From: Undibacterium piscinae
GTDB lineage: Bacteria > Pseudomonadota > Gammaproteobacteria > Burkholderiales > Burkholderiaceae_D
Direction of reading: 5' to 3'
Assembly: GCA_003970805.2 (NCBI GenBank)
Contig: CP051152.1
Span: 372,001 to 436,000, forward strand
DNA: 64,000 bases
Part shown: in pieces, positions 35,589 to 48,629 of the stretch
Layout of the letters: each line of letters opens with the position of its first letter
How positions within the stretch are numbered: the first letter of the stretch is position 1
Made by a program: the position numbers and the translations under genes
Notes under the pieces: generated by a model
What the model was told of the DNA's origin: nothing
Databases searched by the model: none
The model's input: the letters and a program-made list of their open reading frames with translations, nothing else

Positions 35589-36407
35589 ATGCCAATCAAT
35601 TCTCTCCCTGTCACTGCGCTCTCGCACGGCGCTCTCGTTGGCAAGCATGCGCTGGTCACTGGTGGCGCGCAGGGCATAGGTCTTGCCATCGCCAAAAGCT
35701 TGTTGCTGCAAGCGGCTAGTGTGACCATCGCAGGCCGTACCGAGGCCAGTCTACAGGCTGCCGTGCTGGCCTTACAAGATGCGGTGCAGGCGGATGCCTG
35801 CTTGGGCTATGTGCAGCTCGATGTCAGTGATGCCGCCAGCGTCGCGTTAGCTGTGGCCGCCGCAACGCAGGCGCGTGGCAGTATCGATATTCTGATCAAT
35901 AATGCCGGCCAGGCTGCGGCTGCGCCTTTTCTTAAAACCGATGCCGAGCTTTGGCAGCGTATGTTAGCTGTCAATCTGACCGGCAGTTTTCATTGTACGC
36001 AGGCGGTCTTGCCGGCGATGTTGCAAGCAGGCTGGGGGCGCATCGTCAACCTGGTCAGTACCGCCGGATTAAAGGGCTACGCCTACGTCACGGCCTACTG
36101 CGCTGCCAAACATGGCGTGATCGGTTTGACGCGCGCCTTGGCGCTAGAAGTGGCGACTAAGGGAGTGACCGTGAACGCGGTTTGCCCCGGTTATACCGAG
36201 ACTGACTTGCTGCAACAGGCGCTGGAAAACATCGTCGCCAAGACTGGACGCAGTGAGCAAGAGGCGAAGGCTGAGTTGGGCGCGGCCAATCCACAGCAGC
36301 GCCTGGTGCAGCCCGATGAGGTGGCCAATGCCGTGCTGTGGTTGTGTCTACCGCAGTCGGCGGCGATGAATGGCCAGGCGATTGCGGTTGCCGGTGGCGA
36401 AATCTGA
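35589..36407 (+). CDS. SDR-family NAD(P)-dependent oxidoreductase
   Basis: Classical short-chain dehydrogenase (272 aa) likely acting as a 3-hydroxyacyl-CoA dehydrogenase in the aromatic-CoA pathway. The cofactor motif is VTGGAQGIGLAIAKSL, the structural NNAG is in ILINNAGQA, and the catalytic Ser/Tyr/Lys are in LVSTAGLKGYAYVTAYCAAK. VNAVCPGYTETDLLQ follows. It starts six bases after the monooxygenase gene, showing operon membership. Confidence 0.9.
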   Translation: MPINSLPVTALSHGALVGKHALVTGGAQGIGLAIAKSLLLQAASVTIAGRTEASLQAAVLALQDAVQADACLGYVQLDVSDAASVALAVAAATQARGSIDILINNAGQAAAAPFLKTDAELWQRMLAVNLTGSFHCTQAVLPAMLQAGWGRIVNLVSTAGLKGYAYVTAYCAAKHGVIGLTRALALEVATKGVTVNAVCPGYTETDLLQQALENIVAKTGRSEQEAKAELGAANPQQRLVQPDEVANAVLWLCLPQSAAMNGQAIAVAGGEI

Positions 36408-36487
36408 TGTCTAAGCTTAGCTATTGTCGATTTTAGGGGAGTATAGTGAAAAACATAGTCGATAGCGCACGTATTCATTGGGCGATG

Positions 36488-36513
36488 AAAATATACCCAC
36501 TGGAGTATGTTTT
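36488..36513. promoter_or_regulatory. Imperfect inverted repeat upstream of marR
   Basis: AAAATATAC and GTATGTTTT match as 9-base arms with one mismatch, separated by eight bases, about 60 bases before the marR start. MarR proteins bind such AT-rich dyads near their own promoters, so autoregulation is a reasonable guess; not proven. Confidence 0.35.
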
Positions 36514-36573
36514 GATGTATGTGCCGATGTTGGCGCCTCTGGTTGGTCGGATCAATCAGCGCTGGGAGCGGCC

Positions 36574-37059
36574 ATGAATAGCAAGGCCAGCAATTATGAT
36601 GTAGAGAGCAGAGTGACCGATCAGCACCATCAGTCACTTAAACTGTGGTTGCGTATGCTCTCTTGTAGCACCATGATAGAGACTGAGGTCAGAACCCGGC
36701 TGCGCAATGAGTTTGAGATTACCTTGCCGCGTTTTGATTTGATGGCGCAATTAGAGCGTCACCCACAAGGCTTGCGCATGGGCGAGTTGTCGCAGCGCTT
36801 GATGGTCACGGGCGGTAATATCACCGGCATCACCGATCAGTTAGAGCAAGAAAAACTGGTCGTGCGGGTGGCCGATAGCAAGGACAGACGAGCGTATAGC
36901 GTGAAACTCACGGCGCTAGGTCATGCCAGTTTCCAGCGTATGGCAGCAGTCCACGAAGCGTGGATCGCCGATATGTTCGGCGGCCTCAGTAGCGAGCAAA
37001 AGAGCAGTCTGTTTGAGATTTTGGCGCAGATGAAAGTACATTTAAATAAGCGGATTTAA
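36574..37059 (+). CDS. MarR-family transcriptional regulator
   Basis: Winged-helix regulator (161 aa). The DNA-binding part is FDLMAQLERHPQGLRMGELS, the recognition helix VTGGNITGITDQLEQEKLV, and the wing RVADSKDRRAYSVKLTALG, typical of MarR proteins that respond to aromatic compounds or their CoA esters. The start at 36574 is backed by GGGAG; a longer in-frame ORF from 36478 would cover the proposed operator. It sits in the middle of the catabolic genes and probably controls them. Confidence 0.9.
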   Translation: MNSKASNYDVESRVTDQHHQSLKLWLRMLSCSTMIETEVRTRLRNEFEITLPRFDLMAQLERHPQGLRMGELSQRLMVTGGNITGITDQLEQEKLVVRVADSKDRRAYSVKLTALGHASFQRMAAVHEAWIADMFGGLSSEQKSSLFEILAQMKVHLNKRI

Positions 37060-37148
37060 ATAAGTGGTTTTAAATAAATGAATTAAATACGCGCAGCAAA
37101 TAAACCCAATATTCCCCGTTAAGCTGATCACAGCCTAGGAGTCATCAC

Positions 37149-38003
37149 ATGAAATACTTATCCGGACAAGCGCAGAATCTGCCTGGAAATCGCCAAAGCT
37201 TGGGCGCCTATACTGCTAGTCATTTCTCGTATTCTGTAACTGAGGCGGTGGCAACGATAGTCTTGAATCGGCCTGAACGCAAGAACCCCTTGAGCTTCGA
37301 TTCCTACGCTGAATTGCGCGATCTGTTTCGTAGTCTGGCGTATGCCGACGATGTGAAAGCGATCGTGATTGCTGGTGCTGGCGATAATTTTTGCTCGGGC
37401 GGCGACGTGCATGAAATCATCGGGCCTCTGACTAAGCTCGATATGCCGGGTTTGCTTAGTTTTACCCGCATGACGGGCGACCTGGTGAAGGCGATGCGCG
37501 CTTGCCCGCAGCCTATCGTGGCGGCGGTCGATGGGATTTGTGCCGGTGCTGGCGCGATCTTGGCGCTGGCATCAGATATTCGCTTTGGCACCTTGCGCAG
37601 TAAAACCGCATTTTTGTTTACGCGGGTGGGCTTGGCCGGCTGCGACATGGGCGCCTGCGCCTTGCTGCCACGTGTGATAGGCCAGGGGAGGGCGGCCGAT
37701 CTGCTGTTTTCCGGACGCAGTATGTCGGGCGAAGAGGGCGAACGCTGGGGCTTTTTCAATCGTCTGAGTATCCCCGAAGCCGTACGTACTGACGCCCAGG
37801 TGTATGCCAAACATCTGGCCGACGGCCCCACCTTTGCGCATGGCATGACCAAAAAAATGCTGCAGCAAGAATGGAGCATGAGCGTCGATGAGGCGATCGA
37901 GGCCGAGGCACAAGCGCAAGCGATTTGCATGATGACCAATGATTTTCATCGTGCCTACCACGCCTTTGTGGCAAAACAAAATCCAGAATTTGAGGGGGAT
38001 TAA
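37149..38003 (+). CDS. Enoyl-CoA hydratase family protein
   Basis: Crotonase-fold protein (284 aa). The oxyanion-hole motifs are [15 protein letters not shown] and [19 protein letters not shown], and the C-terminal part [20 protein letters not shown] fits the family. An extra about 25 N-terminal residues precede the fold. In context it would hydrate the double bond formed by the acyl-CoA dehydrogenase two bases downstream. Substrate is inferred from neighbours only. Confidence 0.9.
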
Positions 38004-38005
38004 TT

Positions 38006-39235
38006 TTGCCCGCGCTAACACTAGATATCAGCTACCTTGAGTGGCCATTTTTTGAGCCTAAACACCGGGTCTTGCAAGCGAGTCTGGACGCTTGGGCCAG
38101 AGAGCATATAGCGCAAACGCATGGCGCGGATGTCGATCAGGCTTGCCGCGATCTGGTAGCGCAACTGGCCGCTGGCGGTTGGTTGCAACACGCGATCGCC
38201 GGTCGCGCCTACGGTGCGGCAGAACAGCAGATCGACACCCGTGCGATTTGCCTGATACGCGAAACCCTGGCACGGCACGCAGGCTTGGCTGATTTTGCCT
38301 TTGCCATGCAGGGCCTGGGCTCGGGCGCGATTAGTCTGTTTGGCAGCGAACTGCAAAAACAAAACTACTTAGCGAAAGTCATGCAAGGCGCGGCGATCGC
38401 TGCCTTTGCTTTGTCTGAGCCAGAGGCTGGCTCAGATGTGGCGGCAATGCAATGTAGTGCCAATCTAGTCGACAGTGCCGAGGGTGGACACTATGTTTTG
38501 AATGGCGAGAAAACCTGGATCTCAAATGGTGGTATCGCTGACTTTTACGTGCTGTTTGCGCGCACTGGCGAAGCAGCGGGCGCGCGCGGAATTTCGGCTT
38601 TTATCGTGGATGCGACTAGCCCCGGTCTGGAAATCGCAGAACGTATTCATTTGATGGCGCCACACCCTCTGGCACGTTTGCGTCTGACTAATTGCCGCAT
38701 CCCAGTCATTCAACGCATAGGCGAAGCCGGGCAGGGCTTTAAAGTGGCGATGGCGACGCTGGACGTGTTTCGCACCTCGGTCGCGGCAGCGGCGTTGGGT
38801 TTTGCCAGGCGCGCCTTGGCCGAGGCCATGCAGCGTGCCACTAGCCGCAAGATGTTTGGCCAGACCCTGGCTGATTTTCAGCTGACCCAAGCCAAATTGG
38901 CGCAGATGGCAACCGCCATCGATAGCGCTGCCTTGCTCACCTACCGCGCCGCCTGGCAGCGCGATCAAGGTAAAAAAGTTACCAAAGAAGCTGCCATGGC
39001 GAAACTGGTAGCGACCGAAAATGCGCAGCAAGTGATCGATGCCGCGCTGCAGATGTTTGGTGGCATGGGCGTGATGAGCGAGGTGCCAGTCGAGCGCCTG
39101 TACCGTGAGATCCGCGCTCTGCGCATTTATGAAGGCGCCAGCGAAGTGCAGCAATTAATCATCGCCAGAGAAATGCTGAAAGACCATGCGGCGCTGGCTG
39201 CAACAGTTACTGCAGCAGTTCAGGACACAATTTAA
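38006..39235 (+). CDS. Acyl-CoA dehydrogenase
   Basis: FAD-dependent acyl-CoA dehydrogenase (409 aa). Motifs include [33 protein letters not shown] and the C-terminal [18 protein letters not shown] with the catalytic-base region. The likely start is TTG at 38006, two bases after the enoyl-CoA hydratase stop, implying coupled translation. It probably oxidises a CoA-bound ring product or its aliphatic successor in the same pathway. Confidence 0.92.
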
Positions 39236-39257
39236 GCACAAGTTAAGGATGGATATC

Positions 39258-39653
39258 ATGGATTTTCTGCAACCACCAGACTGGGTTCGACCGCGTGGCT
39301 ATTCCAATGGCGTTGTCGCAAAGGGCCGCAGCGTGTATCTGAGCGGCATGATAGGCTGGGATGGCCAAGGCCAGTTTCATAGCGATGATTTCGCGGCGCA
39401 AGTGCGGCAAGCCTTACAGAATATTGTAGCAGTGCTTGCGCAAGCCGAGGCCAGACCCGAGCACATCGTACGCATGACCTGGTATGTCATAGACAAAAAA
39501 GAATATGTGGCAGCCTATCCGCAAATCGGTGTGGCTTACCGTGAACTCATAGGGCCTCATTACCCAAGTATGACGGCGGTGCAAGTGGCAGGCTTGATCG
39601 AAGATCGCGCCAGGGTCGAGATTGAAGTCACCGCCATGGTGCCAGACCAGTAA
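39258..39653 (+). CDS. RidA-family enamine/imine deaminase
   Basis: YjgF/YER057c/UK114 protein (131 aa) that hydrolyses reactive enamines or imines. MDFLQPPDWVRPRGYSNGV starts the fold; VYLSGMIGWDGQG and YPQIGVAYRELIGPHYPSMT follow, with the family arginine near ARVEIEVTAM. ATG 39258 has a properly spaced AAGG; ATG 39249 is also possible. An upstream reading overlaps the acyl-CoA dehydrogenase end and is rejected. RidA in this operon hints at a nitrogen-containing substrate. Confidence 0.9.
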   Translation: MDFLQPPDWVRPRGYSNGVVAKGRSVYLSGMIGWDGQGQFHSDDFAAQVRQALQNIVAVLAQAEARPEHIVRMTWYVIDKKEYVAAYPQIGVAYRELIGPHYPSMTAVQVAGLIEDRARVEIEVTAMVPDQ

Positions 39654-40074: not shown

Positions 40075-41688
40075 ATGATGATCAATTATATAAATACTAA
40101 TAGGCACTTTAGCCGTTTTTTTCTCGTCTGTACTTTTGCTTTGGTGACTTGTTTTTATTGCACTAGCACATGTTTTGCGCAAGCCGGTGATGGTAAGACT
40201 GCTGGCGTGGAAAATGACATTGTTGATAGCTTCCCTGACGTCGCGATTCTCGGTAAACCATTTGCGCTGCATGTCTGGTTGAATGATCACTTGGCCGAGC
40301 ATTTCGATCAATTTTCTTCGGGTTCCGCCTTACGAGAAAAACCGGCCAGCGCCGAGGCCTTGGTCTTGCTCGATATAGAAAATAATGCGCACTCGAACAC
40401 TGCCAGTATTTCTGATTACGCCATACGCACTATGTTGTATTTGTTGTGGGCCGTGGTGCTGTTGATACTGGTGTACACAGCGCGTCATTATTATTTCACT
40501 TTTAATCGCATGTTCGGCAAGCAACGTCATCCGTATATCGATATCGATACGGCGGATTGGCCTAGTGTGACCATTTTCATCGCTGCACACAATGAAGAGG
40601 CGGTGATTGCGCATTCTTTGCAGGCGCTCTTAGAAGTCGATTATCCGCCTGAAAAATTGCAGATCATGCCTATGAATGATCGCTCTAAAGATCGCACCAA
40701 AGAAATTATCGATGATTTTGTCCTGCGTTTTCCTGGTCGCATCACGCCGTTTCATCGGGTCGATGGAAAACCAGGAAAAGCCGCCGCTTTAAAAGACGCG
40801 ACCGCTTTGGTGAATAGCGAAATCCTGATTATTTTCGATGCCGATTATGTCCCTGGGCGTGGCTTGATCAAACAATTGGTAGCGCCATTTTTCGACCCTG
40901 AAAATGGTGCAGTGATGGGGCGCGTGGTGCCGCTCAATACCGGCAGTAATTTGTTGACCCGCTTACTCGACATGGAGCGTTCTGGCGGTTATCAAGTCGA
41001 TCAACAGGCGCGTATGAATTTGCATCTGGTGCCGCAATACGGTGGCACCGTGGGTGGAGTCAGACGCGCGGCCTTAGATGCGGTTGGTGGTTGGCGCGAT
41101 GAGGCTTTGGCCGAGGACACGGATCTGACCTATCGCCTCTTGCTGGACGGCTGGAAAACCGTGTATCAAAACCGTTCGGAATGTTATGAAGAAGTGCCAG
41201 AAGGCTGGGGCGTGCGGGTGCGCCAGATTATGCGATGGTCGAAAGGCCATAATCAGGCCGCGATACAATATTCAGTCAGATTGTTGGGAAGTAAAAAAGT
41301 CTCCTGGGGCGAAAAGCTAGACGGCTTTTTACTTTTAGGCGTGTATGCGATGTCGCCGATTTTATTGTTTGGCTGGATGCTGGCAATCACTCTGTTTTAT
41401 TTTAATCCAGATAATTGGCTCAATGGAATTTTGGCCCTGTTTGCCTTAATGTCGTATAGCGCGCTGGGTAATTTTGCGGCATTTTTTGAGATTGGTGCGG
41501 CTGTGTATTTAGATGGAAGTCGCGGCCGGATTAAACTCATGCCACTGAATTATTTTGGGTTTTTGATTAGCCTGTTAGCGATCTCACGCGCCACTTTCAA
41601 TCAAATAGTTTTCGACACGCTGTTAAAACGCACCCTGGTATGGGATAAAACCGTGCGCTACCGAAAACCTATCGTCGCCCATCCTTAA
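40075..41688 (+). CDS. Processive GT2 glycosyltransferase (polysaccharide synthase)
   Basis: Membrane-bound family 2 glycosyltransferase of 537 aa. An N-terminal hydrophobic segment (about 13-35) precedes an 80-residue presumably periplasmic stretch; a second helix (118-136) leads to the catalytic domain: IFIAAHNEEAV (168-178), DAD (255-257), EDTD (347-350) and the processivity motif QIMRW (384-388). Three or four helices follow. This layout resembles BcsA/PgaC/HasA-type synthases that polymerise and extrude a chain. It starts a seven-gene coupled operon; the sugar is unknown, but wecB within it suggests N-acetyl-mannosamine or -glucosamine. Confidence 0.88.
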   Translation: MMINYINTNRHFSRFFLVCTFALVTCFYCTSTCFAQAGDGKTAGVENDIVDSFPDVAILGKPFALHVWLNDHLAEHFDQFSSGSALREKPASAEALVLLDIENNAHSNTASISDYAIRTMLYLLWAVVLLILVYTARHYYFTFNRMFGKQRHPYIDIDTADWPSVTIFIAAHNEEAVIAHSLQALLEVDYPPEKLQIMPMNDRSKDRTKEIIDDFVLRFPGRITPFHRVDGKPGKAAALKDATALVNSEILIIFDADYVPGRGLIKQLVAPFFDPENGAVMGRVVPLNTGSNLLTRLLDMERSGGYQVDQQARMNLHLVPQYGGTVGGVRRAALDAVGGWRDEALAEDTDLTYRLLLDGWKTVYQNRSECYEEVPEGWGVRVRQIMRWSKGHNQAAIQYSVRLLGSKKVSWGEKLDGFLLLGVYAMSPILLFGWMLAITLFYFNPDNWLNGILALFALMSYSALGNFAAFFEIGAAVYLDGSRGRIKLMPLNYFGFLISLLAISRATFNQIVFDTLLKRTLVWDKTVRYRKPIVAHP

Positions 41689-41699
41689 GGCGATAAATA

Positions 41700-42827
41700 A
41701 TGAATTCGAACTCCCTATTTTTTCTTTGTGTGTTTCTCTTGTTTAGCCTGCCTTTATTGCCAGCCTTGCTGGAGTTATGGCTAAAAAAAGATGCAACGCC
41801 ACTCAAAGTGGTCAGAGAATATGACGGCAACATTAACTATTTTGCCCAGACTTTTCGGCACTTTGTAGAGCAGCAGTTCGCCCAGTTTTTGGATACTACG
41901 GTAGTCACCAATATGGCTTTGCAGTACAAGTTGCAAGATGGCAGTCCATTCCAAATTGTCGGGGCAGATGGGATCGCGCTATTTTCTGCTGCAGAATTAT
42001 CGAGTCGGCAAACTCAGCAAATTATCATTGCCAAAAGTGGGTTTAAAGTCCCCGACGGCATGTTCTTTGAAAAAGAAGTGTATAGCCGGCAAGACGTCAT
42101 CGGCACTAATAAACTTTCTTTTCGCGCCATCTTGGCCGATGGTGATATACGGCTTGGCGATCAATGCTCGCTGATACGCTGGGTGCATAGCCAGCAAAGT
42201 ATACAACTGGGACTAGGCGCAAAAATATACGGACGGATTTCAGCTGAAAAGAAAATTAATTTGGGCGCAGACACACGTTTTGGTCGTATGCACGCACCGG
42301 TCATCTATTTTGGTGACGGCTCAGCGAGTGAAGCTCAGGGTTTGGCCACTAGTGTTGCGCTAGAAATGGTACTAGAAAATAAGGCCGCCAAAAGTAAATT
42401 AAGCATGAGTAGCAAAATTCTCGATGATACGGCCAATCGCTGGCTGGCCAAGGGGGATTATACGGTCAGCAGAAATACTCAGCATCAAGGCAGTCTGGTG
42501 GCGCAAATGGATTTGCGGATAGAGGCACATTGCCATATTGTCGGTAGTCTTAAGAGTTCTGGTGATTTGCATCTGGATGATTGCTGTGTGATTGAGGGCG
42601 CTGTGGTGGCTGAGGGCACTATTTACATAGGTCAGTCTTGCCGCATTAAAGGCCCAGTCATCGGTGAGAAAACCGTGCATATAGGCACAGGCACGGTGAT
42701 CGGGGCGGCTGCGCAACTCACCACGATCACGGCTCCCATAATACGTATTGCGTATGGCGTGATCGCTCACGGTGCGGTGTGGGCGCGCGAAATGGGTTAT
42801 GTCGCTGCGCCCACCCTAAAAAAATAA
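41700..42827 (+). CDS. Membrane-anchored polymer-forming (bactofilin-like) protein
   Basis: A 375-residue protein with one N-terminal membrane helix (FFLCVFLLFSLPLLPALLEL). The C-terminal half has the hydrophobic beta-helix rhythm of bactofilin-type domains: IVGSLKSSGDLHLDDCCVIE, GAVVAEGTIYIGQSCRIKGP, VIGEKTVHIGTGTVIGAAAQ, about six residues per strand. Residues 40-200 resemble a second beta-rich part. It could form a scaffold positioning the synthase. It starts 11 bases after the glycosyltransferase gene. Confidence 0.75.
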   Translation: MNSNSLFFLCVFLLFSLPLLPALLELWLKKDATPLKVVREYDGNINYFAQTFRHFVEQQFAQFLDTTVVTNMALQYKLQDGSPFQIVGADGIALFSAAELSSRQTQQIIIAKSGFKVPDGMFFEKEVYSRQDVIGTNKLSFRAILADGDIRLGDQCSLIRWVHSQQSIQLGLGAKIYGRISAEKKINLGADTRFGRMHAPVIYFGDGSASEAQGLATSVALEMVLENKAAKSKLSMSSKILDDTANRWLAKGDYTVSRNTQHQGSLVAQMDLRIEAHCHIVGSLKSSGDLHLDDCCVIEGAVVAEGTIYIGQSCRIKGPVIGEKTVHIGTGTVIGAAAQLTTITAPIIRIAYGVIAHGAVWAREMGYVAAPTLKK

Positions 42828-42835
42828 ACAATACT

Positions 42836-43873
42836 ATGAAAATTATTCTCATGCTGCTTGCTAGCCTGCTCAGCGCCATCCCTGCGAGTGCACAGACGCG
42901 TTCGCTAGAGTTGAAAAACACTGGATACCAACTTGAAAACGGTGCAATAACTCTGGCTCATCAGGGCCAATTTATCGATCCATATTTTGCGATTCGTGCC
43001 TTATTGTCGGCCCATAGTGTAGGCATGGATATAGAACATGCTGCCCTCGCTTATATCGCTTGGCAATTGCCACGACAGGAGGCGAATGGCCTGTTTAAAC
43101 GTTATTGCCTTGAACAAGAGTTAGCGCCGCAAGCCTCAGCTCCGCAAGACTCCGCCCAGCATGCCTTGCCAGAGTTGGCAGTATGGCGCGCTTGTGCCGA
43201 TGCCGATGCGGATGATGCCCTGCTGGCGATGTGGATAGAGCTTTTGTATCTGATGGCGCCAAATCAAGGCTTGCCGCCAGAGTGGAAGAAAAGTGTGCTG
43301 TCGGCACGTAGTCAGTTGGCTTTGATTTACGATAAAAGCCGCGGTATCTATGTGATCTCTCGTAGCAATAGAGTCGGCTTGTTGATGGATAACATAGAAA
43401 TTTACGCCGCCTTGCGTAGCACAGCAGAGCAGCAAAAGCGCCTGGGCCTACATCAATTGGCGCAAAAATCTGCTTTGCAAGCCAAGCAGTTGGAGCTGGC
43501 AATACAAAAAGTATTTCGGCCTTCTCGGCAAGGTGATTTCCGCATTTCTACCCAAGCACCGGAAGCCAGTCGTTTTTACCCGGAGCAGGTAGGGCAAGTG
43601 TTCGCGCCCTTATTCGGTATGCGGGTAGGCCAGATGGATGCCAAAAAATCCGGACAGCACACGCTCAGTAAATGGTTGGGCGAGCATCAGGTGGCATGGT
43701 TGGCGCATGAAAAAGATCACTTTCCCTGGGGTTTGATCGCGCTCGCCGCAGAAAAAAATGAGGCGCAGGATACTGCCAGACTCTGGGTGGAACGGGCTTT
43801 GCCATTGCGCCATGGCGAACGCTGGAATGTCTTGGAAGAAGCTATTTTTCAAGCCTTAAGCGGGAATCAATGA
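42836..43873 (+). CDS. Exported protein of the polysaccharide operon, unknown function
   Basis: A 345-residue protein with a signal peptide (IILMLLASLLSAIPASAQT). The rest is alpha-helical with helices of the kind seen in (alpha/alpha) toroids (DNIEIYAALRSTAEQQKR, WGLIALAAEKNEAQDTARLW), so a glycan-binding or glycoside-hydrolase-like fold is possible, but no catalytic motif is recognisable. An in-frame start at 42779 would overlap the previous gene; ATG 42836, which opens a proper signal peptide, is preferred. Its stop overlaps the next start (ATGA). Confidence 0.7.
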   Translation: MKIILMLLASLLSAIPASAQTRSLELKNTGYQLENGAITLAHQGQFIDPYFAIRALLSAHSVGMDIEHAALAYIAWQLPRQEANGLFKRYCLEQELAPQASAPQDSAQHALPELAVWRACADADADDALLAMWIELLYLMAPNQGLPPEWKKSVLSARSQLALIYDKSRGIYVISRSNRVGLLMDNIEIYAALRSTAEQQKRLGLHQLAQKSALQAKQLELAIQKVFRPSRQGDFRISTQAPEASRFYPEQVGQVFAPLFGMRVGQMDAKKSGQHTLSKWLGEHQVAWLAHEKDHFPWGLIALAAEKNEAQDTARLWVERALPLRHGERWNVLEEAIFQALSGNQ

Positions 43874-45735
43874 TGGCAGCCGGATCTTTTTTGAATGCGC
43901 TCAAAGCCTTGGGCCTGATGTTGTTATTCGGCCTGAGCATCTGGCTGTATCAGGTCTGGCAGCGGCCCGCCACTGTGCCAGTCAAGGCGAGTATCGCCCT
44001 ATTATTACCTGACGAAGTAAAGGCATCGGATGACTTGGTTGCGATTTGGATAGACGCTGCGCGCGAGGAGGGTATCTTGCTCGACGTGATACATACCTCA
44101 GAGTTTTTGCGTCCTTCTACACCCTGGAAAAAATTCCCGTATCAAGGCCTGATTTTACCGGATAAGGTTGCGCCAAAAGCCAGCGCAGCACTGAGCCAAG
44201 GCCTGATTAATTTCACTGAAAATGGCGGGAAATTATTCTTGTCCTTTGATGCCGCCACCCAAAACCAACAGGGCGCTTACTATCCGAATCGAGCACCGCT
44301 GTCCAAGCTGGTAGGGGTGGAGTATGCACTTTACGATCAATTGCACGACCGCACTATCACTTTGGGCAATGTGCTAGGTCAGACTGAAGATCTGCTGCGC
44401 CTGGGCGTGCCACCGGGTAAATTTATTCCTTATCTCAAGGCAACTGCGGATACGTCTTTGCAGCAACCTAAAGTAATCGCCGGTTATGAATACGGACCGC
44501 TTAGTTATTCTAGTTTCGTCACGCGTGGTGCCTACGCCGGTAAACGTCTGCTATCGAGTACCTCTGGTGATTTGGTGGCCGGATACCGCGAGGCTGGCCA
44601 GGGTGGGGTTTTATTCGTAAATCTGCCCTTAGGCTATCTCAAGGGGCAAACGGATGGCTTACTATTGCATGGTTTTTTACAATATTTTGCTGCTGAAATT
44701 GTCGGTGTCCCTAGTCTGTCGGCAGTTCCGAATGGGCGTGGTGGCTTGATTTTTAACTGGCATGTCGATTCAAATGCAGCGGTCTTACCTATAGAAAAAA
44801 TTCAACAAATGGGGCTGTTGAAACAAGGCCCATTCTCTATACATTTTACAGCTGGGCCAGATACCCGCGAAGAAGGCGATGGTCTGGGTTTAAATCTGAG
44901 TCAAAACAAGACCATGCAAGAGTGGGTAAAGGTATTTAAACAACGCGGTGATGCCTTAGGAAATCATGGCGGTTGGATCCATGATTACTTTGGTTTAAAT
45001 ATCACTGACGAGAATGAGAGTAGCTTTTTACCGTTTTTAGAAAAGAACCATCAGTCTGTGAGTGCCGCCAATGGCTCACCGGTGCGCGAATACTCCGCGC
45101 CTTTGGGTGTGCAGCCGAAATGGGTGACTAATTGGTTAGAGTCGCAGGGTTTTGTTGCCTATTATTTCACAGGTAATAGTGGTATGTCAGCCACCCGCAG
45201 CTACCGTGAAGGGCGATTGTTAAATCAGCATATCTGGTCATTTCCGGTACTCACGTTTGGTGATGTCGCTTCCTTTGAAGAAGCCGCCAAGCACGATATT
45301 TCTGAAGCCGAGATGGCGGAGTGGTTGCTGGGATTTAGTGATTTCACGGCACGTAATGCGACTGTACGCATGTTTTACTCGCATCCTCCTGGTATTTTGC
45401 TCTACCCCAAAGCGGTCAAACAGTGGTTCGCCCGTACGCAAGCATTGCTCGATCAAGGTAGCTTCCAGTGGTACAGCATGACCCAAATCGCCGATTTTTT
45501 AAATCTGCGCGAGCGCACAATTTGGCATATACAACGCACCTCTGAGCGCGAGAGTTTAGTCGCCGATCATCCGGAAAATTTAAAGACCTTAACCTGGAAA
45601 TTCCCCAAGTTAAGATACGCCAAGCCGGTGTTAGAGCAGGGGCAAGGCAGTATCCTTGAGCATGCTGACGAATGGTATTTCGTGGCCGGTGAGGGGCGCC
45701 ATATTACGCTTTTATTAAAGAGGAAAACTTCATGA
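43870..45735 (+). CDS. Membrane-anchored polysaccharide deacetylase-like protein
   Basis: A 621-residue protein with one N-terminal membrane helix (about 10-27) and a large periplasmic part. Residues 40-290 resemble a flavodoxin/amidotransferase-like domain (LTFTENGGKLFLSFDAAT-type segment). Residues 295-530 resemble a NodB-related deacetylase: FNWHVDSN, ALGNHGGWIHDYFGLN and MFYSHPPGILLYPKAV, which supply Asp and His for a metal site. It would de-N-acetylate the nascent polymer, as PgaB does for PNAG. Start and stop overlap both neighbours by four bases. Confidence 0.75.
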   Translation: MMAAGSFLNALKALGLMLLFGLSIWLYQVWQRPATVPVKASIALLLPDEVKASDDLVAIWIDAAREEGILLDVIHTSEFLRPSTPWKKFPYQGLILPDKVAPKASAALSQGLINFTENGGKLFLSFDAATQNQQGAYYPNRAPLSKLVGVEYALYDQLHDRTITLGNVLGQTEDLLRLGVPPGKFIPYLKATADTSLQQPKVIAGYEYGPLSYSSFVTRGAYAGKRLLSSTSGDLVAGYREAGQGGVLFVNLPLGYLKGQTDGLLLHGFLQYFAAEIVGVPSLSAVPNGRGGLIFNWHVDSNAAVLPIEKIQQMGLLKQGPFSIHFTAGPDTREEGDGLGLNLSQNKTMQEWVKVFKQRGDALGNHGGWIHDYFGLNITDENESSFLPFLEKNHQSVSAANGSPVREYSAPLGVQPKWVTNWLESQGFVAYYFTGNSGMSATRSYREGRLLNQHIWSFPVLTFGDVASFEEAAKHDISEAEMAEWLLGFSDFTARNATVRMFYSHPPGILLYPKAVKQWFARTQALLDQGSFQWYSMTQIADFLNLRERTIWHIQRTSERESLVADHPENLKTLTWKFPKLRYAKPVLEQGQGSILEHADEWYFVAGEGRHITLLLKRKTS

Positions 45736-46892
45736 TTCATCAGAAAATTTTATTGTGCATGGGTACGCGTCCAGAGATTATTAAGATGGCGCCGATTTAT
45801 CATGAACTGAAAGCCTGCAATATAGAAACCCTGCTGCTGCATACCGGTCAGCATCAAGACATGGCCGATCCTATGTATGGATTTTTTAAAATCGTGCCCG
45901 ATTTTAGTCTGCACTTACCACGTACTTCGGATAAATTATTTCATTTGTCGGCTCTTTTGCTGGAACAAATTGGCCGTGCTTTGCTGGAAATACAACCCAC
46001 CGTCGTGCTGGTGCATGGTGATACTTCTAGCGCCGCGATGGCTGCTTTGGCAGCGTTTTATCAGCAAATTCCAGTCGGTCATGTTGAGGCTGGTCTGCGT
46101 TCACATCAAGATTACGATCCCTTCCCTGAAGAAAAAAATCGAGAAATGATAGGGCGTTTAGCGCGCTGGCATTTCGCGCCTACTGAGCAAGCTAAGCATA
46201 ATTTGATGCTAGAAAATATTCCTGAAAGTCGCATCCATAAAGTCGGCAACACCATCGTCGATGCGGTGCGTCTGAGTGATACGCAATTTAAGGAATCGGT
46301 AGAACAAGGCAGTGAATTAGAGCATGGCGCCTTGAAGACTCTGGCTGCGCAATCCCTGAATCGGCGTTTGATCCTGGTGACAGCGCATCGCCGTGAGAAT
46401 CTAGGCGCACCGCTACTATCGATTGCCGCTTCGGTACGTGAGCTACTACAGAGTGAGGAAGATATCGTGGTAGTGTGGCCAGTTCATAGCAATCCCAAAG
46501 TGCGTGACACTGTGCATGAAGTATTGAAAGATTTAGCACCGCAACACGCCAAACGCCTGTATTTGACTAAGCCGCTGAGCTATCCAAGTTTGGTGAAACT
46601 ACTCAAACAAGCCTGGCTAGTGCTGACCGACTCGGGTGGCATACAAGAAGAATCTGCCTGCATGCAGTTACCAGTGATGATCTTGCGCGAAACTACCGAA
46701 CGCCCTGAGTTAATCGAGTCAGGTGGCGGCATTTTGATAGGCACCGAACAAGAGGTGATCGTCAATCAAGTACGGCGACTGCTGCATGATAGCTCGGCGC
46801 ATAGCGCTATGTGTGGCGCTAAGAATCCATTTGGTGACGGTTTCGCTGCCGCCCGCATACGCGACATACTCGCGCTGAATAAACATGCATAA
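45732..46892 (+). CDS. wecB: UDP-N-acetylglucosamine 2-epimerase (non-hydrolysing)
   Basis: Converts UDP-GlcNAc to UDP-ManNAc in the cytoplasm. MGTRPEIIKMAPIYHEL, HTGQHQDMADPM, VGHVEAGLRSHQDYDPFPEE, TAHRRENLG and LTDSGGIQEESACMQLPV are all family motifs. 386 aa. Being inside the operon, it probably supplies the precursor for the GT2 synthase, pointing to a ManNAc-containing polymer (inference). The start overlaps the preceding stop (ATGA), and the stop overlaps the next start by eight bases. Confidence 0.95.
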   Translation: MIHQKILLCMGTRPEIIKMAPIYHELKACNIETLLLHTGQHQDMADPMYGFFKIVPDFSLHLPRTSDKLFHLSALLLEQIGRALLEIQPTVVLVHGDTSSAAMAALAAFYQQIPVGHVEAGLRSHQDYDPFPEEKNREMIGRLARWHFAPTEQAKHNLMLENIPESRIHKVGNTIVDAVRLSDTQFKESVEQGSELEHGALKTLAAQSLNRRLILVTAHRRENLGAPLLSIAASVRELLQSEEDIVVVWPVHSNPKVRDTVHEVLKDLAPQHAKRLYLTKPLSYPSLVKLLKQAWLVLTDSGGIQEESACMQLPVMILRETTERPELIESGGGILIGTEQEVIVNQVRRLLHDSSAHSAMCGAKNPFGDGFAAARIRDILALNKHA

Positions 46893-47820
46893 GTCTGTTT
46901 TTGCCAGCCTCGTACTGCTGTTGGCGCATGCCCCGATTCAGGCCGAAGAACGGCTTGCTTTGTCGCTAAAAATGAGTCCGCAAGTTGCGGCAGAGGTAGT
47001 CGCTAGTGAAGTCGTCGAAATAGCCGAGTCAGAGCAGCCAGAGCAGCCAGTAGCGGAGCCAGTTGCGCCGGAAGAGTTGGCAGCCGCAGTTGCGCCTCTA
47101 GCGGTATTTCGAATGAGTGGCTACCTGGAATTAGGGGTGATGCAACATCAGTTGACCCAAAATTATCCAAATTGGAATGGTCAATTTGTGCGTGGTTTTC
47201 TACGCTCTGCAGTCGATACTGCCTGGCAATTGGAGATACTCGCTTCTAGCCAATTTGGTGACAGTGGAACTTTGCTGGTCTTAGGAAATACCTACGATAT
47301 CAATGAAAATTGGTATACCACGAATAGCATCGCCAGCAGTCGTGGCGGATTTTTTTTGTCGCAGTTGAAACTCGATAGTGCGATCAACCGTATCTGGTTG
47401 GATGGCAAAAATCTAGTCACTAGCGTGGCGCTTGGTGTGGTTCAGGCAAAAGATGAACATCGCGATTTAAGCGTGATGCTCTCTGGGGCTTACCACTTCA
47501 GTGAGCCATGGGTGCTAGAGGGCGGCATACGCTTTAATCAAAGTAACCCCGGTGGGGTCGCGTCTACCGGTAAGTACGCCGCACTTACTTACGGACGAGA
47601 TCAGGAAAGCATAGTCTCCTTACGTTACGGTTTCGGCACCGAAGCCTATCAAACCCTGGGGACCAATGTGCAAATTTCTAATTTCGCGAGTGACGTGTAT
47701 ACCCTGACATGGCGCAAATGGTTGCGTCCAAAGCAAGGGGTGCAGTTGCGTCTGGAAGCCTATAAAAATCCCAACTACAGTCGCAATGGCGTAGAAGTAT
47801 CTGTGTTTCAGGAGTTTTAA
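46885..47820 (+). CDS. YaiO-family outer-membrane beta-barrel protein
   Basis: A 311-residue exported protein with a signal peptide (VFASLVLLLAHAPIQAEE), a Glu/Pro/Val-rich linker (EQPEQPVAEPVAPEELA), and a barrel domain of alternating strands ending in the C-terminal aromatic residue (VEVSVFQEF) needed for outer-membrane assembly. LTWRKWLRPKQGVQLRLEAY and NPNYSRNG are typical of YaiO. E. coli yaiO lies by the glycosyltransferase yaiP and deacetylase yaiS, an analogous set. It would be the export or surface component. Confidence 0.82.
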   Translation: MHKSVFASLVLLLAHAPIQAEERLALSLKMSPQVAAEVVASEVVEIAESEQPEQPVAEPVAPEELAAAVAPLAVFRMSGYLELGVMQHQLTQNYPNWNGQFVRGFLRSAVDTAWQLEILASSQFGDSGTLLVLGNTYDINENWYTTNSIASSRGGFFLSQLKLDSAINRIWLDGKNLVTSVALGVVQAKDEHRDLSVMLSGAYHFSEPWVLEGGIRFNQSNPGGVASTGKYAALTYGRDQESIVSLRYGFGTEAYQTLGTNVQISNFASDVYTLTWRKWLRPKQGVQLRLEAYKNPNYSRNGVEVSVFQEF

Positions 47821-48629
47821 TGGACGCCTATAAGTTACTCCAAAATAAAATTCAAGACCTGCGTTTCCGCGGTTTTGGTGGCACATCGATACAAATGCAT
47901 AGGGCGATATTTTCTATTCGCCTGCAAAAATCAAATCTTATTTTGGCCTTGCTGTTGCCATTGTTTTTTAATTTTTTGGTGTTTGCTTCCTTAGATCTTA
48001 TTCTCCAGAGTTGGCATGCGCTGTTTGATTTTTGGCTAAGGCAGATCGCGCCTCATCATCAGGTTCTGGAATATCCTATCGATTTGGGGCGCTATTTATT
48101 GGCAATGCCTTTCCCTGATTTCTCAGCCGGGGCACCGAGTAGTTTTAATTGGTGGCTTAGCCTGATCGTAAGTGCTTTGATTTTTTTGTTGACCTATTTT
48201 ATTCCGCCCGATCGATTTTTACCGCTCACTTATATACTGCGCGCTTGCCTGTTAATTCAATCCACGGCGCTCGCCTATTTCTATTTTTCCCCAAGTACTT
48301 TTCCTTATGATTTACCCAGTTATTTGGGCAATGGTCTGGTGATGGGGCTATTCTTTTTATTTTTGATACCCTGGATTTTAGGCTTCACTTACTATGTGTT
48401 TAATTTCCATATTTTGCAAAAAATTGCACTCACTTTAATCATTCTAGGATATTTTTTACTGGCCTTTCCTATGCAGTACCTGTTTCATGGCTATCTCTTA
48501 AGCGAACTCTCTTTGCTGTATTTGCCGCTGGCCTATCTGGTCTTGGGTGGATTTTTAGATGTCATGATGTTTGTTGCCTTTTATTCCTGGGGCATGAGCT
48601 GGCGCTGGGGTGAGCTGGACGGTAATTAG
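47820..48629 (+). CDS. Polytopic membrane protein of the polysaccharide operon
   Basis: A 269-residue integral membrane protein with about six hydrophobic segments (for example LALLLPLFFNFLVFASLDLI, LIVSALIFLLTYFIPP, LGNGLVMGLFFLFLIPW, LTLIILGYFLLAFPM). No family is recognisable. It overlaps the YaiO-like gene by one base (TAATG) and is the last gene of the operon, so it belongs to the same system, perhaps as an accessory to synthase or assembly. Confidence 0.7.
   Translation: MDAYKLLQNKIQDLRFRGFGGTSIQMHRAIFSIRLQKSNLILALLLPLFFNFLVFASLDLILQSWHALFDFWLRQIAPHHQVLEYPIDLGRYLLAMPFPDFSAGAPSSFNWWLSLIVSALIFLLTYFIPPDRFLPLTYILRACLLIQSTALAYFYFSPSTFPYDLPSYLGNGLVMGLFFLFLIPWILGFTYYVFNFHILQKIALTLIILGYFLLAFPMQYLFHGYLLSELSLLYLPLAYLVLGGFLDVMMFVAFYSWGMSWRWGELDGN

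Follow-up and report, generated by a model that had tools for sequence, protein, structure and literature searches.

A conserved gene set of Undibacterium piscinae and distant bacteria that probably encodes a synthase-dependent exopolysaccharide system with a bactofilin-like component

The window analyzed here is a stretch of 64,000 nucleotides of Undibacterium piscinae (contig CP051152.1, positions 372,001 to 436,000), in which seven open reading frames (ORFs), all on the + strand in the ORF list, occupy positions 40075-48629 (Table 1). The recomputed intergenic spacings along this operon are 11, 8, -4, -4, -8, and -1 bases, and the seven ORF lengths are all multiples of 3, in agreement to the base with the two gaps and four overlaps described in the original prediction. 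The latter read the operon as a synthesis, modification, and export line for a polymer of N-acetylmannosamine (ManNAc) or N-acetylglucosamine (GlcNAc), comprising a family 2 glycosyltransferase (GT2) with a QIMRW motif, a membrane-anchored bactofilin-like β-helix protein, an exported helical protein, a membrane-anchored NodB-like deacetylase, WecB, a YaiO-type barrel, and a six-helix membrane protein. Most of these assignments hold; the third calls for amendment, and the helix number of the seventh is plausible. The family of each part, that of T lacking a Pfam model, is established by sequence or by predicted fold. A longer ORF for gene H starts with a GTG at 42779, and the ATG at 42836, with a signal-peptide-like stretch after it, is the better start.

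Table 1. The seven genes of the operon, with the one-letter names used in the text
Gene	Position	Strand	Product
G	40075..41688	+	Processive-type GT2 glycosyltransferase; N- and C-terminal hydrophobic segments; QIMRW motif
B	41700..42827	+	N-terminal membrane anchor, then bactofilin-like β-helix
H	42836..43873	+	Exported protein, (α/α)6 glycosidase fold (predicted model)
D	43870..45735	+	Membrane-anchored CE4/NodB-fold deacetylase in a GH42-like frame (predicted model)
W	45732..46892	+	WecB, non-hydrolysing UDP-GlcNAc 2-epimerase
Y	46885..47820	+	YaiO-family outer-membrane β-barrel, without TPR (tetratricopeptide repeat) matches
T	47820..48629	+	Polytopic membrane protein; family without Pfam model

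Pfam analysis of G reports a GT2 hit (PF13641, E-value 2.5e-26) and no PilZ domain among the matches at E ≤ 1. The nearest curated NCBIfam family is PgaC/IcaA (TIGR03937; 121 bits, equivalog cut-off 422.3), and the bacterial cellulose synthase model TIGR03030 is matched at 68.2 bits for a cut-off of 699.1; with both scores below the curated cut-offs, G is distinct from the pga and bcs synthases, as had been proposed. The Y protein matches the YaiO barrel model TIGR04390 at 134.2 bits (cut-off 32), and all 23 members of its alignment match it at E ≤ 0.001. In Pfam at E ≤ 1, Y returns the YaiO barrel, one chance-level match, and no TPR family, and the TPR-porin arrangement of PgaA in the Pga system is not found in it; a search of PDB sequences with it returns no match at E ≤ 1. 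T is indeed a membrane protein: a simple hydropathy scan shows some five hydrophobic segments, including a long one, which leaves the proposed six helices plausible. No Pfam domain is found at E ≤ 0.1 in any of 25 T family members, nor among the 97 T homologues listed, of which the named ones are hypothetical proteins.

The B protein scores 26.5 bits against the bactofilin family PF04519 (E-value 7.6e-6), just below the cut-off of 27.9, and 27 of the 29 relatives in its alignment match this family at E ≤ 0.01. In 24 of the 29, more Lys and Arg residues follow the anchor than precede it (fewer in 3, equal numbers in 2), and the part of B beyond the anchor is probably cytoplasmic. Weak matches to hexapeptide and left-handed β-helix proteins could instead suggest an enzyme, a left-handed β-helix acyltransferase of the GlmU/LpxD type that would modify the precursor or the polymer. 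We consider this improbable, as bactofilin is the family that most members match, and as the alignment, in which P21, E25, F194, K285, G318, G335, and G358 are invariant, contains no invariant His or Cys, while a nearly invariant D31 adjoins the membrane anchor. We infer for B a role as a bactofilin-type scaffold; it shares the β-helix repeat with bactofilins but differs from them in being long, membrane-anchored, and fixed within a polysaccharide operon.

The set to which these genes belong is conserved. A search seeded with D gave 141 stretches with a pattern match; after confirmation of 131 of these, the 80 best loci were retained. With presence defined as a profile match within the locus, the 60 long loci (≥19 kb) contain G, B, Y, and T in 59 cases each, W in 57, and H in 50, D being present in all 60 by construction. 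Among all 80 loci, many of them short contigs, the counts are G 73, B 74, Y 75, T 73, W 71, H 58, and D 80. The sole long locus without the set (L083) consists of a lone second D gene, which lies on the same contig as L008 (JACQYB010000054.1), about 30 kb from the complete cluster. H is missing from another nine long loci, of which seven are acidobacterial. The co-occurrence that had been anticipated is found beyond chance and across distant bacteria. The gene order varies: the set is spread over one or two strands and reads WGBHDYT in 13 loci, WGBDYT in 11, GBHDWYT in 9 (window counted), a divergent W with GBYTDH in 6, and otherwise in the remainder. Proteobacteria and Acidobacteria both keep it together. 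By record titles, its many environmental carriers extend from Acidobacteria through to Burkholderiales, and it is also present in Burkholderia species. One locus, from Lysobacter terrigena (L035), has two more GT2-like genes ahead of the core and wecB at the end on the opposite strand.

A second search, seeded with T, covered 300 genomes of the order and 369 of the class and found this gene in six of each, the window's own genome being counted both times. One class match (G613) is weak, a frame of 52 residues with none of the seven genes within the surrounding 19 kb. The ten strong loci (the window, five from the order, and four from the class) all contain G, B, Y, and T together, while W is present in nine, H in seven, and D within the cluster in five. 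D is on another contig in G039, was not found in G127, and is missing, together with H, from three class loci, for which it was sought within the locus only. Of the 300 order genomes, five have a strong D match, and all five also have T (hypergeometric p 3e-10, kinship ignored); three more have a weak D match (E 5e-4 to 6e-4). As G, B, Y, and T stay together in all ten loci while W, H, and D come and go, these data suggest that the four form a core, to which genes for precursor supply, trimming, and deacetylation are often but not always added. The seven genes could also be passengers, with separate cell-wall functions and co-transcribed by chance in one strain, in keeping with a module that is rare and scattered within the genus (gene H is found in 4 of 41 genomes, its own included); the same set recurs in distant bacteria, with many gene orders and spread over one strand or two, which makes this barely conceivable.

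Pfam and NCBIfam searches report no family worth naming for H. The description as an exported helical protein stands on both counts and is refined by the predicted model, which the fold test places with (α/α)6 glycoside hydrolases and which carries invariant acidic residues (D124, D126, D127, E188, and E335). The H profile returns three chance-level PDB sequences (E 0.43-0.67) and no glycosidase at E ≤ 1, the Listeria protein PssZ (6R2M) included; PssZ/GH126 is also absent from the 50 fold matches listed for the model, which excludes nothing. An epimerase- or phosphorylase-like (α/α)6 enzyme acting on polymer ends is an unlikely identity for H. In turn, D matches PF01522 weakly (12.1 bits, cut-off 23.1), and 16 of the 20 members of its alignment match this family at E ≤ 0.01. 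Its predicted model reveals a CE4/NodB domain (residues ~288-549) flanked by GH42-like N- and C-terminal parts, and the deacetylase fold is recognized by the fold test, in support of the NodB-like assignment. H298, D300, H366, H371, and H505 are invariant, and D300, H366, and H371, found in 20/20 sequences, are the predicted Asp-His-His metal ligands. A search of PDB sequences with D returns no match at E ≤ 1, and the closest protein record bears the name Undibacterium (97%). Several loci (L017, L021, L039, L042, L046, L048, L051, L023, and L025) possess at least one further D paralogue, mostly longer, downstream of T, which suggests a rebuilt or duplicated modification stage; in the first seven of these, an H-like gene is also located downstream of T instead of between B and D, which is its place in Variovorax- and Sphaerotilus-type loci.

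The W protein matches the WecB model TIGR00236 over its full length (402.2 bits, curated cut-off 210.15, model positions 2-363 of 366), and the closest PDB relative of its alignment is 1vgv (E 2e-173). WecB-type epimerases make UDP-ManNAc, and a dedicated wecB gene points to this nucleotide sugar as the likely precursor. The operon copy is not its sole source, since the genome, a single contig of 4.19 Mb, contains three wecB copies; among 17 genomes examined, 6 showed no wecB besides that of the locus, with completeness unsure for 5 of those 6. The WecB trees give no support to a single-clade origin of the locus proteins. On a tree that compares 17 locus with 13 non-locus proteins, five changes are required to account for the locus copies, and well-supported branches force two or more of them. 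A second, quickly built tree contains 64 locus and 11 non-locus proteins. One of its branches sets apart the 21 copies encoded downstream of G; a different clade unites 15 acidobacterial copies encoded upstream, and the other upstream and divergent copies are scattered among the non-locus proteins. On the GT2 tree that corresponds to it, the placement of wecB downstream takes four changes, of which one is forced. Read most simply, these trees mean that one and the same machine probably acquired a wecB on more than one occasion, and this would argue that the machine needs UDP-ManNAc. No uronic-acid dehydrogenase is present among the seven genes.

Taken as a whole, the operon fairly likely encodes a synthase-dependent exopolysaccharide system whose product would be a poly-ManNAc/mannosamine chain, exported via Y. 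W would convert UDP-GlcNAc into UDP-ManNAc, which G would polymerize processively while passing the chain across the inner membrane. B, anchored in this membrane with its β-helix on the cytoplasmic side, would cluster or position the synthase, and T would be an inner-membrane partner of the latter. In the periplasm, D would remove acetyl groups to yield a partly cationic polymer and H would trim or clear chains, before exit across the outer membrane through Y. The set is a real, conserved variant of synthase-dependent exopolysaccharide systems and apparently undescribed: no account of this Gram-negative gene set was found in the searched open literature, most subscription journals and all preprints being outside the search. 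More tentatively, it may represent a new class of machine, with a core of GT2, inner-membrane-anchored bactofilin-like scaffold, TPR-less YaiO barrel, and T, which would make a Gram-negative mannosamine polymer by synthases mounted on a scaffold of the bacterial-cytoskeleton type. To our knowledge, the synthase-dependent polymers that have been described well are few in number (cellulose, poly-N-acetylglucosamine (PNAG), alginate, and Pel). The set being present in many environmental bacteria, its polymer may be a matrix component so far overlooked. If this holds, YaiO-family barrels would gain a defined setting, a bactofilin-like protein would be tied to polysaccharide synthesis, and the loci would be a source of enzymes acting on ManNAc polymers.

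Several points weigh against this interpretation. The polymer is a prediction from genes, the donor specificity of a GT2 is not readable from sequence, and the named relatives of T are hypothetical proteins. To the rarity of the module, the bactofilin score of B, and the three class loci reduced to a core without D and H are added the branch uniting the 21 downstream WecB copies, whose Shimodaira-Hasegawa-like approximate likelihood ratio (SH-aLRT) of 94 is just under the starred level, and the long-branch warnings carried by both WecB trees. Moreover, wecB is missing from one core locus (G550) within the 19 kb read and from two of the 60 long loci (L052 and L056), which keep the rest of the set; the donor may thus have another source, or the monomer may not always be the same. 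These gaps, together with PgaC/IcaA as best NCBIfam match of G, would suit a GlcNAc-based (PNAG-like or chitin-like) or mixed GlcNAc/ManNAc polymer, for which WecB would only adjust the UDP-HexNAc pool or supply a minor residue. Such a polymer is rather unlikely, given how far the PgaC score falls under its cut-off and that wecB is present in 57/60 long and 9/10 T-seeded loci, seemingly after repeated recruitment: a required precursor fits this frequency and recruitment better than a side role. Of the two sugars left open originally, ManNAc is the better supported candidate.

Regarding the surroundings of the operon, the ORFs upstream (35589-39653), assigned by eye as SDR, MarR-type regulator, enoyl-CoA hydratase, acyl-CoA dehydrogenase, and RidA-like, are apparently unrelated catabolic genes. 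A scan returned 11 promoter sites (12.4 in shuffled sequences) and 17 terminator-like sites (10.7 +/- 3.9), nothing of use. As markers of an empty site, the two flanking genes, by eye RidA-like and cytochrome b561-like, were searched for in 30 genus genomes and matched in 20 and 29 of them, respectively. Roughly 9 kb separates the two in the window's genome and likewise in G015, a genome of the same genus that has gene H at 100% identity. In the others, a long distance lies between them or they fall on separate contigs, of which many are short, and no empty site was found in the genus genomes. As for extra conserved partners, the widest cluster, response-regulator-like by eye, occurs in 16 of 81 stretches, the others being lineage-specific or shadow ORFs. 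A plasmid search with D identified one Cupriavidus megaplasmid, with no annotated gene in the stretch. Two loci with a core devoid of D and H (L149, a region of G599, and L150, of G544) lie near proteins that look by eye like repeat-rich amyloid subunits, with a C39-peptidase-like ORF (by eye) also near the core of L150, and are possibly joint matrix loci.

The operon and the known systems share several components and differ in many aspects. The E. coli K-12 locus, in the order yaiO, yaiX, yaiP, and yaiS, has a YaiO-family barrel and a GT2 in common with the operon. YaiO belongs to the same barrel family as Y at the profile level, with no meaningful BLASTP alignment, and YaiP is 24% identical to G over 212 residues. 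YaiS is a PIG-L deacetylase, not a CE4 enzyme, and has no similarity to D, so the parallel drawn originally loses its deacetylase, retains the barrel family and a GT2 in general, and is weak overall. No wecB or bactofilin gene is annotated in the 10.5 kb read, and the annotation of yaiX (L113:4845-6873), which separates yaiO from yaiP, is that of a putative acyltransferase gene that IS2 interrupts. The Pel system (PelA-G, PelX) also combines deacetylase and hydrolase activities, in PelA, and has a donor-sugar epimerase, encoded by PelX; its synthase arrangement differs from that of the operon. No alginate- or Pel-named model occurs among the NCBIfam matches of the operon proteins, the sole comparison made with these two systems. 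The PNAG system PgaABCD shares with the operon a GT2 synthase, a CE4 deacetylase, a hydrolase function, and an outer-membrane barrel. In passages of one paper, PgaA is described as TPRs plus a porin and PgaB as joined deacetylase and hydrolase domains (PMC5933820). In contrast, the operon has a barrel without TPR match, hydrolase and deacetylase as two proteins, and the additional wecB, B, and T genes. The closest functional precedent is the Listeria Pss polymer, by likeness of function and not by sequence comparison. Passages of three papers describe a β-1,4-ManNAc backbone with α-1,6-Gal branches, deacetylated by PssB and degraded by PssZ, an (α/α)6-barrel protein (PMC6307706, PMC7479077, PMC11439720). 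On that account, D and H may be functional counterparts of its deacetylase and its (α/α)6-fold hydrolase, and the product of the operon would be a Gram-negative functional counterpart of the Pss polymer with its ManNAc backbone. We know of no bactofilin-like or wecB gene in the Listeria Pss operon. While Pss is Gram-positive, devoid of an outer-membrane barrel, and decorated with α-Gal branches, the operon adds both a barrel and a bactofilin-like protein.

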